Below are positions 1 to 7,327 of a DNA stretch of 64,000 bases, one piece after another; the stretch's first letter is position 1; the number at the start of each line of letters is the position of its first letter. Made by a program: the position numbers and the translations under genes. This DNA comes from Corynebacterium sp. HMSC29G08 (GTDB lineage: Bacteria > Actinomycetota > Actinomycetes > Mycobacteriales > Mycobacteriaceae): positions 1 through 64,000 of the forward strand of contig NZ_KV786211.1 of the NCBI RefSeq assembly GCF_001806875.1, written 5' to 3'. Below the pieces are notes generated by a model, which saw only the letters and a program-made list of their open reading frames with translations, did no database searches and was not told where the DNA came from.

Positions 1-120
1 CGGAACACCGGTACCAAAAACCCGCATCTGACAAAGGCTTCTAAAGGGCCTTCTCAAAGACACAAACCCCGGATTCACACTCATCCTTGAGTTACCTGAA
101 TCTGAACCCAGGACGCTTCA
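1..120. other. Non-coding left edge, no gene recognised
   Basis: No open reading frame with recognisable content is present here. The stretch lies downstream of the relaxase gene, beyond its terminator hairpin. It is probably part of the same plasmid-derived accessory region, but the sequence itself gives no proof. Confidence 0.4.
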
Positions 121-127
121 AAAAACA

Positions 128-164
128 CCGCTCTAATTCTTCGATTTTCGCTGAATTAGAGCGG
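128..164. terminator. Perfect 12-bp hairpin terminator downstream of the relaxase gene
   Basis: The arms CCGCTCTAATTC (128-139) and GAATTAGAGCGG (153-164) are perfectly complementary around a 13-base loop. On the minus strand the stem is followed by a GTGTTTTTT run, so it fits a Rho-independent terminator for the minus-strand relaxase gene. A TTTT also follows on the plus strand, so it may act in both directions. Confidence 0.75.
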
Positions 165-247
165 TTTTAGCGCTGTCGCTGGACACTGACCCTGGCGACA
201 TCCTGTTAGGCCGCTACAGGGCCATACAGGGCAGGGGAGACCCCCAT

Positions 248-1966
248 CTACGGCTTGCCGCCGTCGGGGGAATCCTTGTCACCGTCGGGAGACTCCTTGC
301 CACCGTCGGGGGACTCCTTGTCACCGTCGTGGTCGCGCTGTTGCTCCTGCTGGCGGCGCTTAGCGATGCGTTCCAGCGCGCGACGCAGTACTGCAGCGCT
401 TTCCTCCTGAGTACGGTCGATGACGATCTCGCGGTACCGTTGCTTCATCTCTGGGTTGCTGTCAATCTCGACCCGCAAAAAGTCCTGATCAACATGCGAA
501 ATCTCCTGCAACGACTGCGTTGCTTCCTCGATGATGATCTTCGCTTCCTGCTCTGCTTCCTCGCGCGTTACTGCAGCGTCACGTGTGGCCTCATCATGTT
601 CTTCACTGCCGAATTCTTCGGCAAGGTCAAGCAGCTCATCTGCCTGAGCTTCAGCGAGACCCAGCGTCTGCTCAGCTTCTTTGCGTGCGTCATTGCGGAT
701 CTGCTCGGCTTCTTGCTCGGCCTTTTCGCGTGCTTCGCTGCGGAGCTGTTCGGCTTCCTGCTCTACACGCTTGAGCTTGGCTTCGGCGGCGCTCTCAACC
801 TCCTTGGCACGGTCCAGCAACTCTTCCGCCTGTGCCTCGGCAAGACCCAACTCCTGTTCAGCATCCTTCTGTGCATCACCACGAATCTTTTCGGCGTCCT
901 GCTCGGCCTTCTCGCGTGCTTCTTTGAGTACGCGCTCGGCAACCTCGCGAGCCTGCTGTTCAGCATTTTCCTGCACACGCTGGGCTTCTTCACGGGCCTG
1001 CTGCGCCCGTTCGAGTTCTTCTGCAGCTTGCTTGCGGTCTTTCGCTGCAGCATCGACATCTCGCTGTACGGAGCTGTGCTTCCGTTCCACCTCGTCCTCA
1101 CGGTTCGCAAGGTCGCGCTCCCGGTCCTGCTGTTCGACGTAACGGTCAAGATTCAGCGACTCATTGTGACGTTCAGACACATCTAGCTCTACCGGGTAAC
1201 CCAACGCGTACATGTGCTCTCGAAGTCCATGCTGCGCGTCGATGAACTTCTGGTTCCCGGAGATTTGTTTGCCCTTCTTCGGGCCAGATATGTACCGCAC
1301 CGACTCATCAGTGTTGTACGCGATGCCGGGCCGGCAGCGGAGCTTGTCGGGATCATCCGGCTTCGGCGAGAACGTATCAGCCTGGAACTGGATGTGTGGC
1401 GTTGATTCGTCGAAGTTCATATCCCCACCGGCTACGGCATCGATGCCGCCGGGGATGAAGTTCTCGGCGAGCCAGCGCATCGACTCTTCGAGGTACTCCT
1501 TCGCTTCGTCGTAGTCCCGTGCGACAAGCCGTGCGCGCTTCACCTCACGGCCGTCCACAGTGCTGGTGTAGAAGTCGGGGACCTCTACACACATCGACTT
1601 CGGCAGATGCACGACGAACAGAGACGTCTCGAAACTGTTCTTCTGTACGCGCACGCCGTCCATCCGGGCGTCTTGGTACGCCAAGACCTCCTCGACGGAC
1701 GCAGCGCGTCGGAACGTGCCGTTGCCGTCGTTGACGAACGGAACGTTCAAATGCGCATCGGCCACGACGATATTGCTATTCATCGCGGCCTGATGCGCGA
1801 GATCCTGCGGATCTAATTCTCGCATCGCCTCCTTGAGGAGTCGCTTGCGGTCTCCTCGCGTGTCTCCGCCGCAGTTGTCGCGGCGGAGATGGCGCAGATT
1901 GAACGCTGCGCGTCCCTTCTGCGCTGTAGATGTCTTCGACATATCGCGTACCTCCTGTAGCGACAT
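248..1966 (-). CDS. MobV-like plasmid mobilisation relaxase with long coiled-coil tail
   Basis: This 572-residue protein resembles the Mob/Pre (MobV) family, which nicks oriT and pilots plasmid DNA during conjugative mobilisation. Seen in the sequence: an HLRRDN motif near residue 28, an NIVVADAHLN segment near residue 65 (MobV proteins have a similar 'THLN' segment), and NFDESTPHIQF near residue 183, which aligns with the metal-binding HxDExxPHxH motif. Two of the three expected histidines are replaced here (by N and Q). Residues about 275-520 are a Glu/Ala/Arg-rich coiled coil containing two copies of a roughly 37-residue block. The tail has three PDG(G/D)K repeats. The start is ambiguous: a 24-bp tandem duplication gives two Shine-Dalgarno/ATG sets, at 1966 and 1942. 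Family assignment is fairly secure; catalytic activity is uncertain because of the motif changes. Confidence 0.75.
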   Translation of the reverse strand: MSLQEVRDMSKTSTAQKGRAAFNLRHLRRDNCGGDTRGDRKRLLKEAMRELDPQDLAHQAAMNSNIVVADAHLNVPFVNDGNGTFRRAASVEEVLAYQDARMDGVRVQKNSFETSLFVVHLPKSMCVEVPDFYTSTVDGREVKRARLVARDYDEAKEYLEESMRWLAENFIPGGIDAVAGGDMNFDESTPHIQFQADTFSPKPDDPDKLRCRPGIAYNTDESVRYISGPKKGKQISGNQKFIDAQHGLREHMYALGYPVELDVSERHNESLNLDRYVEQQDRERDLANREDEVERKHSSVQRDVDAAAKDRKQAAEELERAQQAREEAQRVQENAEQQAREVAERVLKEAREKAEQDAEKIRGDAQKDAEQELGLAEAQAEELLDRAKEVESAAEAKLKRVEQEAEQLRSEAREKAEQEAEQIRNDARKEAEQTLGLAEAQADELLDLAEEFGSEEHDEATRDAAVTREEAEQEAKIIIEEATQSLQEISHVDQDFLRVEIDSNPEMKQRYREIVIDRTQEESAAVLRRALERIAKRRQQEQQRDHDGDKESPDGGKESPDGDKDSPDGGKP

Positions 1967-1984
1967 ATCGCGTACCTCCTGTAG
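1937..1984. repeat. 24-bp tandem duplication carrying ribosome binding site and start codon of mob
   Basis: Two perfect, adjacent 24-bp copies (1937-1960 and 1961-1984) each contain, on the minus strand, AGGAGG, a short spacer and ATG. The gene therefore has two identical in-frame initiation modules 24 bases apart. Confidence 0.95.
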
Positions 1985-1992
1985 CCCCCTAA

Positions 1993-2036
1993 AGACCTCA
2001 GTCTAGCCACCTCGCAAGCTCGGATAACTGAGGTCT
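1993..2036. other. Candidate oriT: 10-bp inverted repeat just upstream of mob
   Basis: AGACCTCAGT (1993-2002) and ACTGAGGTCT (2027-2036) form a perfect inverted repeat with a 24-base spacer, 27 bases upstream of the mob start. MobV relaxases of the pMV158 type nick within an inverted repeat located right upstream of their own gene and can repress their promoter there. Position and structure fit an oriT or autoregulatory site; no conserved nick sequence was recognised. Confidence 0.45.
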
Positions 2037-2239
2037 CACGGGGGCGCCTGCAGCGGGCAATCGCGAAGCTGCAAAACCCTCCCTATTCGGTCGGCTTTCT
2101 CCGCTTCGCCTTGCGTGAAAAGCTACGTGACCTGCGAAGAGGCGCTGTGGCGATCTTCTTTGTCCCGCAGCAGGGCAGGGCCGGCACGGCGCTATTCGCC
2201 CCGTTTGGCCCTGCCTGAGGCTTCTGACGAAGCCTGACA
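2037..2239. other. Non-coding spacer in plasmid-derived region
   Basis: No convincing gene is visible. The only open frame (minus strand, 1998-2249) has low complexity and no recognisable motif. The stretch separates the candidate oriT from the hairpin array. Confidence 0.4.
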
Positions 2240-2514
2240 TAACCGTCACATTAAAAATGTACCGGTTATGAAGCGGTGCACATTTTCAGAGCGAAAATTG
2301 ACGCCGCACCACAAGCGGTGCATTTTCCCTGCTCACGCTGTGAAAACAGGACTTTTAGAAAAAGTCCTGGCGTCGCACCCCCTTATACTGTGTTTACGGT
2401 GTCAGTGCTGAAAAACAGTCCTGACACATCAATTCCGTCATCGCTGCAGCTCAGACGGCAAAAAATCGGTTACGAACCGATTGTTTTTTGCGTGTAACCG
2501 GTTATGAACCGGTT
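2240..2514. other. Array of hairpins (possible replication origin or regulatory RNA region)
   Basis: At least six inverted repeats follow each other: TAACCG...CGGTTA around ACATT/AATGT (2240-2268); GGTGC..ATTTTC/GAAAAT..GCACC (about 2276-2312); a perfect 10-bp stem, CAGGACTTTT/AAAAGTCCTG, with a 3-base loop (2347-2369); GTGTCAG/CTGACAC (2399-2427); AATCGGTT-ACG-AACCGATT flanked by an A-run and a T-run (2460-2489); and AACCGGTT-ATG-AACCGGTT (2496-2514). The motif ACCGGTTATGAA recurs. Such density is typical of plasmid origins (single-strand origin, lagging-strand start) or of antisense-RNA copy-control regions. Which of these applies cannot be told from sequence alone. Confidence 0.6.
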
Positions 2515-2611
2515 GACACACATATCCTTCGGAATATCGCGCTGGTACAGCGCTGTTTTCGCGTCGCTACAGCCTTGCAGCACGGCCACGGGAGCAGCTC
2601 CAGACAGAGCA

Positions 2612-2636
2612 AAACCCCGCCACGAGGACGGGGTTT
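2612..2636. terminator. GC-rich hairpin, probable terminator
   Basis: AAACCCCG (2612-2619) and CGGGGTTT (2629-2636) form an 8-bp stem with a 9-base loop. It lies between the hairpin array and the istA fragment. It is terminator-like, but the T-run is short. Confidence 0.5.
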
Positions 2637-2744
2637 CGATGGGAGAGTAACCGCTACGGCGGCACACCTTTCGCGCTCAGACTGTACAGCGACACGGGGT
2701 TCGGCCGTACAACCACACGCCTAATTCTGTACAGTCTCGCCGGA

Positions 2745-3417
2745 GTTATCCGGCACCAAGATGCGACTGTTTGACCCAACCGGGAAACCGGGTGCAAAAG
2801 TCAGTATCTTTGTTGCCTCTCTTCCATATTCAGGGATGCTGTTTGCATGTGCGTGTGCTGACCAACGCCAACAGGCCTGGCTTGATGCTCACCGGTGTGC
2901 ATTTGAATATTTTGGCGGCGTCTGTCAAGTCGTCGTGCCTGATAACGCGTCGACTGCGTCGAACGCAATCAGTACGTCAGATAGAAACCGGAAGGTCAAT
3001 GACACCTACGAACAGTTCTTGGAGCATTACAACACTGCAGCTCTTCCTGCCCGTCCGCGTCGACCGAAAGATAAAGCGAATGTGGAAGCCGCAGTCAAAA
3101 TTGTCACACACAAGATCATCCATGCACTCGATGGTCACCAGTGCGTTGATCTTGACGAGCTCAATGACAAGATTGTCAGCCTCGTCGATGCAATTAACGA
3201 TGCCACGCCGTTTCGGAGTCAGCAATCAAGCCGCCGGGACCTGTTTGAAACCTATGAGCAGCATCTTCTTGCCGATCTGGCGCAAACACCATGGCAGCAC
3301 ACCGAATGGAAACGCGCGAAAGTCGCACCAGATTTCCACATCATTGTTGCCACGGTGCGCTACTCGGTACCGCATCAACTCGTTGGGCGCACCGTCGATG
3401 TTTTTCTCTGGTCGTGA
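2745..3417 (+). pseudogene. istA': IS21-family transposase IstA, central/C-terminal fragment
   Basis: The reading frame from about 2745 gives SGTKMRLFDPTGKPG, then IFVASLPYSGMLFA, VVPDNAST and KDKANVEAAV, matching the DDE transposase core of IS21 IstA. The second catalytic Asp (PDN) and the Glu (NVEAA) are present. The first catalytic Asp, normally in a VDW(A/S)G motif just upstream, is lost at the left break. The right end stops at VGRTVDVFLWS, short of the normal C-terminus, where a plasmid replication gene fragment begins. No istB partner or terminal repeats are visible next to it, so this is an inactive remnant. An ATG at 2761 could give a 218-residue product, but function is unlikely. 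Confidence 0.85.
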
Positions 3418-4141
3418 AATCTTCGAAGCAGCGAAAACACGCAGGCAAGAAGCAGAAGCCTTCAAAGCGCTTGCAAACGACGTCGAAGCAGAACTTGCGA
3501 CAAGCGTTGAGCGCTATGACCCCGACCTCATCGAGGGCGTGCGCGTGTTGTGGATTCACCAAGGACGCGCTGCACGTGACGAGACGGCGTTTCGACATGC
3601 GCTAAAAGTCGGGCACAGGCTACGCGCAGCAGGCCAGCGCTTAACCGATAACGCTCTGATTGACGCTTACGAGCATGGATACAACATCGCCCAAGAAGCC
3701 GGTGGCGATGGGAGACTCTCGGAGATGCCGCCGATGCGTGATCGCCAGACCATGGCGAGGCGAGTTCGTGGGTACGTCACGCAGGCAAAGGCTTCAAACG
3801 GTGGTTCTGTGGCCCCTGGGAGAGCTACAAGCACCGAACGTAAGGCCTTGGCCACGATGGGACGTAGAGGCGGTCAGAAAGCCGCACAACGCTGGAAAAC
3901 AGACCCAGACGGCGAATACGCGCGGGGCAGGCGCGCCACAATGAAGCGGACCCATCGAAAAAAGAAAGTCCAGGGGACGAGTAACCGTCAGAAAGTCGGC
4001 CAATTCGTAAACGAATATTGGATTGAGACTGGTCGACTACCAACGTGGAAATTGATTCAGAAAGAGACAGGCTTCTCTCGGGCTACGGTCGCCCGCCACG
4101 TTTCTGCCCTCAAGGAAGTGGGTGAGTGGCCTGAGCCGTAG
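3398..4141 (+). pseudogene. C-terminal part of a corynebacterial plasmid replication initiator (RepA-like)
   Basis: From the in-frame ATG at 3398 the frame encodes about 247 residues resembling the C-terminal half of theta/rolling-circle Rep proteins of corynebacterial plasmids of the pCG1/pNG2 kind. Segments such as ARDETAFRHALKVGHRLRAA, MRDRQTMARRVRGYV, RRGGQKAAQRWKTDPDGEYA and a terminal helix-turn-helix (ETGFSRATVARHVSALKE) support this. The N-terminal catalytic part is missing. The upstream frame (back to 2771) stays open by chance through istA sequence, giving a chimeric 456-codon frame. This family assignment is from memory of the family and should be checked by search. A truncated DNA-binding Rep could still be made from 3398, but there is no clear ribosome binding site. 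Confidence 0.65.
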
Positions 4142-4159
4142 GGGGGTCTCACACCATAT

Positions 4160-4330
4160 GCAATATACGGTTCCCCGTGCGGTAGCACGTGAGCTACCTA
4201 GGTTCGTTTCTTTTTTAGCAACAGCGAAGCGCGGGGGTCGACCTGCCGAGGGGTGCCTGAAAGCGCCCTAAATAAATGTGCCACCCCGTAAGCAATATAC
4301 GGTTTCCCTGCGAACGTGTTCTCACGTGAG
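4160..4330 (+). repeat. Two imperfect direct repeats flanking the rep remnant end
   Basis: GCAATATACGGTTCCCC followed by an element ending GCACGTGAG (4160-4193) recurs as GCAATATACGGTTTCCC followed by TCTCACGTGAG (4292-4330). The shared part is about 16 of 17 bases plus a CACGTGAG end. The copies lie between the rep remnant and the secreted-protein gene, and could be iteron-like, regulatory, or scars of duplication. Confidence 0.6.
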
Positions 4331-4378
4331 ACGATAAGATGACGACAGGTGGTTTTGAAAGATTTGAAGGATGCTCAT

Positions 4379-4966
4379 ATGAAAAAGGTTCTATTTCGCT
4401 CCCTGACCCTGCTTTTTGCCACAGTGCTAGTTTTGTCTTCCTCGAGCATGGTCAATGCTGCGCCAGATCCCAGCGCTCCTTCTCCAGCCGGAAACGATGA
4501 AACCAGCTTGGAAGATTTCTCCGAATCGCTTCAGCTTTCGAAAGATCCGACTGAACGACGTAGACAGCTCACAGAGGCAGGGTTTGTCAAAGTAAATGAT
4601 CGGATCGAACATGGGTACACCGTTGAGACCTACAGCAAGAAAGATCCTTCGGGTATAACTGTGGAATATGACGTAGTGGTGCCTCCAGCGGGGCCCACTC
4701 TTTACGTTAATTTCGAGTGGGATTGGGGTCCGCGGCTCTACATGACCGGTGCTGAGTTTTGGTCGCTAGGGGCGGCTGGATTTGCCGGACTTCTATGCAA
4801 CTACTTCAGTGGAGGACTCGCTGCTGCCGGGTGCTCTATGGCCACCACGGCGTTTTGGAACAAGCTCGCTGGGAATAACCGCATCCTCAATGACCAGACC
4901 TGTTATGACTTCAGTCAGGCGCTTAACATTGGATGGGAAGTAGCTCCGAAGGAAAAGTGTCGATAG
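4379..4966 (+). CDS. Secreted four-cysteine protein of unknown function (bacteriocin-like candidate)
   Basis: The ATG at 4379 is chosen because GAAGGA lies 7 bases upstream and the protein then opens with a classical signal peptide: MKK, a hydrophobic core (LTLLFATVLVL) and a likely cleavage at VNA-AP near residue 27. The 195-residue precursor has a polar Pro/Ser/Glu-rich N-terminal half and a hydrophobic Gly/Ala/aromatic stretch near residues 125-160 (GAEFWSLGAAGFAGLLCNYF), followed by a basic end. All four cysteines fall in the last third (LLCNYF, AAGCSM, QTCYDF, EKCR), so two disulphides are possible. I do not recognise a named family. A Gly-rich amphipathic C-terminal segment after a signal peptide, next to a small membrane protein gene, is what secreted bacteriocin-like proteins look like, but this is inference. 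Confidence 0.7.
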   Translation: MKKVLFRSLTLLFATVLVLSSSSMVNAAPDPSAPSPAGNDETSLEDFSESLQLSKDPTERRRQLTEAGFVKVNDRIEHGYTVETYSKKDPSGITVEYDVVVPPAGPTLYVNFEWDWGPRLYMTGAEFWSLGAAGFAGLLCNYFSGGLAAAGCSMATTAFWNKLAGNNRILNDQTCYDFSQALNIGWEVAPKEKCR

Positions 4967-4985
4967 TCTAGGCAGTATACAAAAG

Positions 4986-5297
4986 GTGCGTTCCATTCCG
5001 GAAATGAGGAGTCAGCGAGTCGCCGCCATTTTTTCATTAACCCTTGTTTTGGGGGCTGGCGTCTATGTGGCGTTGTCGCGCCACTTCTCTGCTCTTGGGT
5101 TAGTTCTATTCTTCGTTTCAGCATCTGTTCTGCTCTTTCTCTGCTGGAAACCAAAAAGAAAAGCTTCGGCCGCTACAGGGATCATTTCCGTAGGGGCGGT
5201 GGTTTATGCACTTCCTCTCGGGGTCATTGTTTCCTCGCCGACCTTCGGGGGCGGTCTGATGGCGATTGGCGTCCTCATGGCGGCATTGCGCCTTTAA
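4986..5297 (+). CDS. Small four-helix membrane protein, possible immunity partner
   Basis: This 103-residue protein is almost entirely hydrophobic, with about four transmembrane segments (near residues 11-30, 35-54, 62-83 and 87-102) and a basic loop, KPKRK, in the middle. It starts 19 bases after the secreted-protein gene and so is probably co-transcribed. The start is GTG 4986 or ATG 5004; neither has a strong ribosome binding site. No family is recognised. Small multi-helix proteins encoded right after secreted antibacterial peptides are often immunity proteins, which is the basis for the suggestion. It could equally be an unrelated membrane protein. Confidence 0.6.
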   Translation: MRSIPEMRSQRVAAIFSLTLVLGAGVYVALSRHFSALGLVLFFVSASVLLFLCWKPKRKASAATGIISVGAVVYALPLGVIVSSPTFGGGLMAIGVLMAALRL

Positions 5298-5373
5298 AAG
5301 GATTGGCGATCGCTTAACCCAAGGCCTCGCCGCGAGCCGCGCGAAGCCTTTCTGTGCGTTCGTTAAAAGCGGG

Positions 5374-5628
5374 CTAATGACGGCGCTTCGCGGCCCGGCG
5401 TTGGGTGCGATTGTCGTCCGTTTGCGGTACCGCCGCTGCGGCGTCCTCGGTAGCGTTGAGCGCTTTGGAGAGTTTGTACACCGCCGTGATGCTTAGGCCT
5501 GCTGTAGGACTCCTGCAAGAAGATCGCCCAACCGAAACACGCGGTGATGCTGCTGATACCACCGATACGCAGTCGGGGAATCGCCGGTATAAAACGGTCA
5601 CAGGCTGAACCGATGGGAAAAATGGCTG
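5374..5628 (-). other. Decayed sequence of unknown origin between membrane protein gene and istA remnant
   Basis: On the minus strand one frame ends in a plausible Ala-rich, basic C-terminus (KLSKALNATEDAAAAVPQ...AAKRRH, stop at 5374), while another frame further upstream reads as a hydrophobic stretch (IGGISSITACFGWAIF). This looks like the 3' end of a former gene broken by frameshifts. The parent family could not be identified. Confidence 0.35.
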
Positions 5629-5631
5629 TCA

Positions 5632-6078
5632 TGTCCCGCCCAGTCGACTTGCATGGTGTGGGCAGGGGCGTGCGTAATGCGTGCGCTAAGACCTGTGGCA
5701 TCGACGTGTTCGGCAACAAGCTGACGGAATCGCTCGTAGCTGTAGTAACGCTGACCTGGGTGAGCTGGTTGGGTGGTGTATCGCCCCCCAAGACTTGGAG
5801 GGTCACTTTGTTTCGCCCGGTGCGCGCCTTGACAACCGCTTCAAAGTCAATCGGCACGAAGTCACCTTGAGCAACACTACGACCATCAACAAATCACGTA
5901 GCCATTTCTTCATCAGTGATGTCGGCAAGTTGTGCATGAGTTGTGATCTGGTGCGTCGCTTCACCATTGTGTGGCGAGCTTTTTGGACTGTGGTGTGTGA
6001 ACATCGCACAGTCGAACAGATTTGGCGGACAGACCAGCCTTGCAAAACTAGATCCATCACGGCCCGATAATCAGTCAC
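5632..6078 (-). pseudogene. istA': IS21-family transposase IstA, N-terminal fragment with frameshifts and a stop
   Basis: The likely start is GTG 6078, preceded by GGAG. It gives MTDYRAVMDLVLQGWSVRQI and an N-terminal helix-turn-helix (CSHTTVQKARH), the usual opening of IS21 IstA. The frame then breaks: after about residue 45 the homology continues in another frame as QLADITDEEMAT, an in-frame TGA, then FVDGRSVAQGDFVPIDFEAV. It shifts again at a run of six G to RYYSYERFRQLVAEH. It ends at MQVDWAG, which contains the first catalytic Asp. Everything after that is missing. The gene is clearly dead. Its break point corresponds closely to where the other istA fragment (2745-3417) begins. Confidence 0.85.
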
Positions 6079-6144
6079 GATCGGACTCCTCTGATAAGCC
6101 GCATGCCCTTTTGTCACACGGTCAGAAAAATCCTCCCCCAAAGT

Positions 6145-6212
6145 GTTACTCGATACTCACCGTTGCGTTACTGGATAGTCACCACGGTGTTACTAGATAG
6201 CCCCGCGCAACA
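6145..6212 (-). mobile_element. IS21-type left end with three transposase-binding repeats
   Basis: Upstream of the istA N-terminal fragment, three copies of TATC(T/C/G)AGTAAC (minus strand) occur at 6189-6199, 6166-6176 and 6145-6155, spaced 21 and 23 bases apart. IS21 elements carry such multiple repeats at their ends. The tip TGTTGCGCGGGG ends at 6212 and fits the usual IS21 terminus beginning TGT. This marks the right boundary of the mobile DNA next to gluD. Confidence 0.75.
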
Positions 6213-6311
6213 ATGTTGCTCACCCACCCATGGCCTAAGTCAGGTAAAACCCACAGGGTACAACGACAAGAGTGATCTTCACAGCACAAACTGTGCACCA
6301 AGTCAAACTAA

Positions 6312-6348
6312 AAGCGCGCATCGAGTCTTTCGACTGATGCGCGCATCA
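6312..6348 (-). terminator. Terminator of the gluABCD operon
   Basis: GCGCGCATC (6314-6322) pairs with GATGCGCGC (6336-6344), extended by an inner GAGTC/GACT stem around TTTC. On the minus strand the stem is followed by TTTT. It lies just after the gluD stop, as expected for the end of the operon. Confidence 0.85.
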
Positions 6349-6370
6349 CGGGAGCTTGTTCGTCGAGAAG

Positions 6371-7327
6371 CTACTCGTCTGGGTTCTCGATCTGCTTGTA
6401 ACCCGGTGCCTTCCAGTCCACGTTGACTGTGTCCTTGGTGTCCAGGCCCACGCCAGCGCCGGCGGCCTCCGGAACCTTGGCAAAGATGTTGCGGCGTGCA
6501 CGGCCCGCGCGCAGCTGGCGCTCCACACGCTCCGCCAGGGCGGTAAGCGCGAAGTTGATCAGGATCATGATCACGCCAACAACAAACAGGGAAGCCAGGA
6601 AGTTCTGGTTCGCAGACGCGGATTGGATGCCGGAGCGAACAACCTCAACGTAGCCAATCTGGTAACCAAGCGCAGTATCTTTCAGTGCAATCACCATCTG
6701 AGCGATCAGCGCCGGCAGCATTGCAGCCACTGACTGTGGCAAAAGGATGGTCCACATGGTCTGCCAGTGCGACATACCAAGTGCACGGGACGCCTCAGTC
6801 TGGCCCTTGGGCAACGAATTGATACCAGCGCGCAGGATTTCTGCAATGACAGATCCGTTGTAGAGAGTCAGCGCAACTACCACCGCCCAGAACGCAAGGC
6901 CGCTTGGCGGCACCATTTTGTACAGCGCGAAGAGCTGGTAGGCGAAGATCATCAGAAGCAGCACTGGGATAGCGCGGAAGAACTCCACAATCACAGCGCA
7001 GAAGCCACGCACGAGGCGGTTTTCGCTCAGCCGTCCAAGGCCGAAGACCACGCCAAACACAATGGCGAAGATGATGCTTGTTACAGCGGCTTTAACCGTG
7101 CCCCAAAGACCGGGGAGGATGTAGGTCTTCCACGTGTTGCCGTCGAGGAATGGGCGCCACTTGGCTGCATCCAGCTGGCCCTTGTCGCCCAGGGTGGACA
7201 GTACCCACCACAACGCAAGCGCCATGAGGGCAATGGTGATCACAGTGTAGATGCGGTTGCGCTGGAGGGCCTTCGGGCCTGGCGCGTCATAAAGAACAGT
7301 TGCGCGTACTGCGTTAGAGGTAGCCAT
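6371..7327 (-). CDS. gluD: Glutamate ABC transporter permease GluD
   Basis: This 318-residue inner-membrane permease belongs to the polar amino acid (HisMQ-type) family and forms the GluC-GluD channel of the glutamate uptake system known from Corynebacterium glutamicum. About six transmembrane segments are visible, with the ATPase-contact (EAA) loop near residues 190-215 ([20 protein letters not shown]). The C-terminus is extended by about 45 polar residues ([20 protein letters not shown]...). Its ATG directly follows the gluC stop (TAAATG), so translation is probably coupled. It is the last gene of the operon and is followed by a strong terminator. Confidence 0.93.

Follow-up and report, generated by a model that had tools for sequence, protein, structure and literature searches.

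A candidate bacteriocin-immunity gene pair in Corynebacterium: a secreted four-cysteine protein and its four-helix membrane partner

Two adjacent genes near the start of a Corynebacterium contig, encoding a secreted protein with four conserved cysteines and a small membrane protein, probably form a two-gene bacteriocin-immunity cassette, a reading to which we give a probability of about 0.74 and in which the antibacterial role is argued by comparison only. A secreted protein with conserved cysteines and a hydrophobic C-terminal part, a membrane partner beside it in every intact case, joint mobility of the two genes and survival of the membrane gene together make up the signature of a bacteriocin with its immunity protein. 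This likeness had been proposed in a sequence-only reading of the DNA and gained support from comparison across the genus, where the two genes co-occur and the membrane gene appears to outlive the secreted one.

The two genes and the relic that carries them

The window, that is the whole stretch of 64,000 nucleotides analysed here, is the start of a contig in a 2.41-Mb genome, which is close to C. riegelii (G146), with MiaB 96% identical between the two. The gene of the secreted protein, the presumed toxin or bacteriocin (4379..4966, + strand), runs from an ATG at 4379 to a stop codon at 4964-4966, encodes 195 amino acids and follows a plausible ribosome site (GAAGGA, 4366-4371). The presumed immunity gene, encoding the membrane protein (4986..5297, + strand), opens with a GTG at 4986, 19 nt past that stop codon, and ends with a stop codon at 5295-5297 (103 amino acids). 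The sequence-only reading had placed both ORFs and the 19-base gap correctly. No promoter or terminator consensus was found in 4100-5500, and no Rfam match in 3900-5700.

The proposed signal peptide agrees with the N-terminus of the secreted protein, by hydropathy and by eye: it carries Lys-Lys, Arg, a hydrophobic stretch (Kyte-Doolittle up to 1.77 over 19 residues) and V-N-A before residue 28. Cleavage after V-N-A, placed by eye, would make residues 1-27 (4379..4459, + strand) the signal peptide; if cut at 27/28, the mature protein has 168 residues, 18.4 kDa and a pI of 4.6. Its N-terminal part (residues 28-118; 4460..4732, + strand) is acidic, with a net charge of -9. A conserved hydrophobic Gly/Ala-rich part with Cys140 and Cys152 follows (residues 119-166; 4733..4876, + strand), containing 37.5% Gly plus Ala and three charged residues, with a mean Kyte-Doolittle value of only 0.55, and then a conserved C-terminal tail with Cys175 and Cys194 (residues 167-195; 4877..4963, + strand). 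All four cysteines lie within the last third of the protein, as had been noted, and all are invariant in the five intact secreted sequences, two of which are identical. Mean pairwise identity, computed from the first five rows of the alignment, was 21% in residues 28-56, 42% in 57-111, 64% in 112-165 and 65% in 166-195. The AlphaFold2 model of the secreted protein was weak (mean pLDDT 63.7, pTM 0.56); at this low overall confidence it placed a helix and three strands in residues 57-101, a hairpin of helices 124-143 and 146-165 further on, and one more helix at 172-182.

For the membrane protein, AlphaFold2 predicted four helices (mean pLDDT 79.7) and hydropathy gave four hydrophobic segments, in line with the four-helix protein described from the sequence. 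By a simple hydropathy rule the four segments are kept in 13/13 intact membrane ORFs, a count that includes G124, which was left out of the identity and tree comparisons. The membrane protein of G056 has four segments despite only 15% identity to that of the window.

The surroundings of the pair are a plasmid/IS relic, next to what we take to be the glu operon. A mob-like ORF (248..1966, - strand), so labelled in the sequence-only reading, is open and had no Pfam match above cut-off (best row DUF7053, E 0.008); window positions 34-2104 are 98% identical to genome G161. Window positions 1-6500 were matched by 46 plasmid records, 41 of them from Corynebacterium, and among the 30 plasmid matches listed all fall within 3400-4185. 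These nucleotide matches (65-73% identity across the 30, 27 of which are annotated there as replication initiation protein) mark the 3' remnant of a plasmid replication-initiation (rep) gene at 3402..4185 (+ strand). One transposase is split into two halves (2752-3401 and 5635-6212) that face opposite ways with about 2.2 kb between them, and their counterparts are contiguous in G146, G100, G173 and others. C. riegelii has a copy of 5490-6212 (99% identical) that leads straight into a rep homologue; compared with that genome, the segment between the transposase halves, which holds the rep remnant and the pair, appears inverted in the window. Synteny with C. riegelii beside the glu operon ends at window base 6215, where other DNA follows that presumably includes a recA gene. 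The description of the region as a decayed island was borne out by the open mob-like ORF, the rep remnant and the split transposase. The further statement that everything else on the island is broken stands for the transposase and rep; the contig begins at window base 1, so the other end of the island lies out of view and the statement does not reach that part.

A 27-bp direct repeat (85%) is present between rep and the pair, at 4150-4176 and 4282-4308. Stretches related to it match other Corynebacterium rep loci, and it is perhaps a plasmid origin element, to judge from these matches. A recombination cassette bounded by these repeats was ruled out, as no repeat copy is found downstream of the pair.

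Distribution and state of the pair across the genus

Matches to the secreted protein were found in 9 of the 242 Corynebacterium genomes sampled. A profile of the family raised this to 11/242, the two extra ones being false: in G178 and G234 (profile E 6e-4) one match fell in what we take to be a YetF/DUF421-like gene and the other in a frame overlapping a presumably Ppx/GppA-like gene, and both were rejected. Outside the genus, only the window's own genome was recovered among the 397 genomes of the order and 394 of the class that were drawn. Scanning a genome collection with a degenerate pattern gave six loci, all in Corynebacterium and one of them a MAG, with C. riegelii, C. uropygiale and C. 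macginleyi as named carriers; a single-sequence scan of the same collection gave no match. The membrane-protein profile matched 60 genus genomes at E up to 0.1. We used the 14 clear loci (E up to 2e-13) and left out 44 further genomes (E 0.001 or worse), taken as unrelated hydrophobic genes. Among 328 genomes drawn from the order, this profile found the own genome only (E up to 1e-4). Within the genus, the membrane gene reaches further than the secreted gene. Weak relatives of the membrane protein in G197 (L051) and G064 (L052), at E about 3e-7, were looked at and kept as uncertain, outside the 14; they stand without a recognisable secreted gene and are possibly part of a wider immunity-like family.

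The suggestion that the pair belongs to an unrecognised family held up: neither protein matched a Pfam, NCBIfam, PHROGs or PADLOC model above cut-off, and membership of a known non-toxic family, which had been named as evidence against a bacteriocin, was likewise not indicated by any family model above cut-off. PDB sequences gave no match to the secreted family above cut-off. Pfam and NCBIfam hold a lactococcin 972 model, and no match to that profile was listed for six members in these two libraries at E up to 10. Several sub-threshold matches were taken as shared hydrophobicity or chance, namely Cpta_toxin (E 0.35) and PRK10537 (E 0.09) with the window membrane protein, TgpA_N in 2/7 membrane members (best E 0.0029), and DUF4025 (E 0.14), AAC_6p_III (E 0.074) and others with single secreted members. 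Structure searches with the secreted-protein model gave no useful match by Foldseek (best E 0.31) or VIA-align (best Z 5.0, 6bu2_B, rmsd 4.1, 60 aligned); at a mean pLDDT of 63.7, their coverage was mainly residues 54-121 and barely took in the hairpin part. No paper on the family appeared among the literature matches listed, and the absence of a nameless family from print is unprovable.

At the 14 clear loci, counted from one genome per species, both genes are intact in five (G000, G146, G039, G144 and G145), the membrane gene is intact and the secreted gene interrupted or lost in eight, and both are broken in one (G102). G144 and G145 do not differ in either gene, leaving four distinct intact pairs. 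With both genes open and in the same order in G146, G039, G144 and G145, the pair is, judging by this conservation, not a chance ORF pair. An intact secreted gene without the membrane gene, which the sequence-only reading had named as evidence against a bacteriocin, was seen in 0 of 14 loci and for 0/5 intact secreted genes.

The eight loci with a lone intact membrane gene show different degrees of decay. In G188 a stop interrupts the secreted gene within the region of the signal peptide; 181 codons stay open from an internal GTG, a product is conceivable and the gene is perhaps alive. Its sister G133, with the same neighbours, has the secreted gene deleted but for short ends (by eye). A stop in G231 removes the last two cysteines. 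One common internal deletion in G175 and G152 leaves about the last 59 codons, with further stops, and in G056 about the last 33 codons are left. In G056, G175 and G152 the remnant immediately precedes the retained membrane gene (tblastn E 1e-11 to 4e-9). A short, weak 3' scrap (E 0.12) is left in G153, and a few bases, by eye, in G124. In G153 an unrelated 154-aa ORF with no Pfam match (L047:5030-5494, - strand) occupies the place of the secreted gene.

By lineage, the eight loci correspond to roughly six independent losses of the secreted gene. Part of this asymmetry would be expected from length, the secreted gene being about double the membrane gene. If losses were proportional to length, the chance that all six of six fall on the secreted gene would be roughly 0.08 by our own arithmetic, and the loss count alone is only suggestive. 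The pattern fits a toxin and an immunity protein in which immunity would outlive the toxin.

Selection, transfer and alternative readings

Selection on the membrane gene would add to the loss count. Between the membrane genes of G000 and G153, the latter having lost the secreted gene, dN/dS was 0.22 (bootstrap 0.12-0.40), with the branch unspecified. Other close membrane pairs gave 0.57 (0.35-1.04), 0.53 (0.25-1.19), 0.46 (0.23-0.99) and 0.49 (0.11-1.96); the close-pair values are below 1, neutrality is not clearly excluded and they are not decisive. Distant membrane comparisons gave 0.16-0.19 with dS nearly saturated. In total, 18 dN/dS comparisons were made, eight of which had undefined dS (two membrane, six secreted) and two no differences. 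There is no dN/dS for the secreted gene because its comparisons are saturated or identical. G175 (L048) and G152 (L049) are identical in the secreted remnant and differ in the 3' part of the membrane gene, and recombination inside the membrane gene is likely there. With that combination of identical remnants and differing membrane genes, the G175-G152 dN/dS does not represent evolution after the loss.

For six loci, the secreted-protein tree and the membrane-protein tree agree in unrooted topology, and the two sets of distances correlate at 0.59, a value reached by 7/720 label permutations. For the flanking genes of the 14 loci, the comparison covered ORFs of at least 60 aa within 4.5 kb and used BLASTP with E up to 1e-6. 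The pair itself contains the sole genes common to many loci with unrelated flanks; the remaining common genes come from sister genomes at one site or occur in two or three loci. The latter are ABC-type ATPase genes (G000, G146 and G231), a transposase (G146 and G152), an ATPase-like gene (G133, G188 and G153) and an ORF group (G039, G124 and G231). Between the window and C. riegelii, membrane-protein identity is only 53%, against the 96% for MiaB, whereas between the window and G153 the values are 83% and 86%. This disagreement of MiaB with the membrane protein points to horizontal transfer. For membrane proteins from one chromosomal locus, identity is 77-84%, against 98-99% for MiaB, a divergence that reflects fast change or allele exchange. 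Together, the matched gene topologies, the differing flanks and the conflict with the species marker show that the pair moves as a unit.

Adjacent genes in the same orientation with an inherited pairing would suit any obligate partner, and the membrane protein could be a maturation or export partner or a membrane anchor for a secreted protein with another role, such as surface attachment or signalling. With its substrate gone, a dedicated partner would be expected to decay, whereas the membrane gene is intact in 8/14 loci beside an interrupted or lost secreted gene and is constrained between G000 and G153. The intact membrane gene fits immunity better than a secretion or processing partner, and we consider the partner reading improbable. 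A kept membrane gene is as expected if immunity pays against neighbours that still make the toxin.

The setting of the window pair, on a relic with mob-like and rep sequences, and of other copies, with a phage-type integrase near that of G039 and a transposase adjoining that of G146, would suit an exclusion or addiction module that stabilises its plasmid or excludes related plasmids or phages. Searches for the pair gave no credible match in 72,556 plasmid records (two unrelated ones at E 0.1 and 0.6), 50,697 phage records or viral contigs and none in PADLOC, and an addiction module would not be expected to combine an exported protein with a partner that also occurs as a chromosomal orphan. We rate this reading slightly lower still; it partly overlaps with the preferred one, because bacteriocin pairs commonly reside on plasmids too. 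A third reading, in which the secreted protein would target the animal host or eukaryotic competitors and the membrane gene would be an unrelated passenger, would suit the named carriers C. riegelii, C. macginleyi and C. uropygiale, all of which live with animals. It leaves unexplained both the matched trees and the survival of the membrane gene where the secreted gene is gone, and we regard it as the most remote of these alternatives. One property counts against the bacteriocin-immunity reading itself: the mature protein is acidic, unlike most small bacteriocins, which are cationic.

Proposed mechanism and comparison with known systems

For the bacteriocin-immunity reading, we propose a mechanism in four steps. 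The N-terminus suggests that the secreted protein would be exported by Sec and relieved of its signal peptide, yielding the mature form of about 168 residues, 18.4 kDa and pI 4.6. The four conserved cysteines would then form two disulfides that hold the Gly/Ala-rich hydrophobic helical hairpin and the tail. Target recognition or a propeptide role may fall to the variable N-terminal part, and the most conserved region, with the hairpin and all cysteines, is likely the killing part, which would attack the cytoplasmic membrane of related bacteria. Finally, the genetics suggest that the membrane protein would reside in the membrane of the producer and block the toxin there. Action of the toxin at the membrane is the weakest step; we propose it on the grounds of hydrophobicity and of the partner's place in the membrane.

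On balance, we think it probable that the pair represents an undescribed antibacterial family restricted to the genus: a Sec-exported, acidic protein with two disulfides and a hydrophobic helical hairpin, with no detectable relative in sequence or, at the low quality of the model, in structure, encoded in a minimal two-gene mobile cassette whose fast-changing four-helix immunity gene has, in most carriers seen, survived the toxin gene and so would record past warfare among animal-associated corynebacteria. If the secreted protein kills, it would offer a two-gene antibacterial for which natural resistance is already mapped; genomes with the membrane gene only would then predict which strains are immune.

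Bacteriocin production is called a neglected trait of Corynebacterium in the excerpts of PMC9927463 available to us, which describe corynaridin, a linaridin of the genus made with modification enzymes. Predicted Corynebacterium bacteriocins include lactococcin 972-like class IId members, lanthipeptides and others, found via known classes according to the available part of PMC12188740. Such mining would probably miss the present family, as none of the models tried matched it. Genus and presumed role are shared with these bacteriocins, which in the passages available are peptides, whereas here an 18-kDa protein has one partner gene.

In the Vibrio cholerae type VI secretion system (T6SS), as described in the accessible text of PMC5361080, effectors are displaced and orphan immunity genes are kept. 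The retained membrane genes resemble these orphans, with the differences of another secretion route and of single genes vs arrays. TspA of Staphylococcus aureus depolarises membranes and is neutralised by TsaI, a polytopic and variable protein whose copies outnumber the toxins (PMC9484751, in the sections available). Polytopic, variable immunity proteins and an excess of immunity copies over toxins would be common to both systems. Unlike TspA, which uses type VII secretion, the secreted protein has a Sec-like leader and no Pfam match, the LXG domain included; unlike TsaI with its five helices, the membrane protein has four, and immunity copies in tandem were not seen. SdpC-SdpI of Bacillus subtilis, from the portion of PMC1626106 at hand, likewise has an exported toxin and, encoded close by, a polytopic immunity protein of the membrane. 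Unlike that system, the pair has no third gene (sdpA/sdpB or a repressor) common to its loci among ORFs of at least 60 aa within 4.5 kb at 14 loci, and no NCBIfam match above cut-off was obtained.

The nearest design that we found, in the parts of the sources available, is the streptococcal class III pair dysgalacticin-DysI, together with streptococcin A-M57. Dysgalacticin is described in the available text of PMC8308785 as plasmid-encoded and Sec-exported (220 aa with a 28-aa leader), disturbing the membrane potential, with the membrane-associated immunity factor DysI encoded by the adjacent gene; streptococcin A-M57 is likewise a protein bacteriocin exported by Sec. Blocking of sugar uptake through the PTS is a trait of this class. 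The secreted protein here would share the Sec-type leader, assigned by hydropathy and by eye, and, at 18.4 kDa when mature, the size class of about 20 kDa. Unlike the present pair, dysgalacticin and streptococcin A-M57 come from a different phylum; no Pfam, NCBIfam or PDB-sequence match above cut-off was obtained, and the likeness to DysA/DysI is one of design. Most likely, the secreted protein is a Sec-exported, disulfide-stabilised antibacterial that acts at the target membrane, of a new sequence family that would work like dysgalacticin-DysI. We rate the pair, on this comparison, as a probable new sequence family within a kind of system that is already known.
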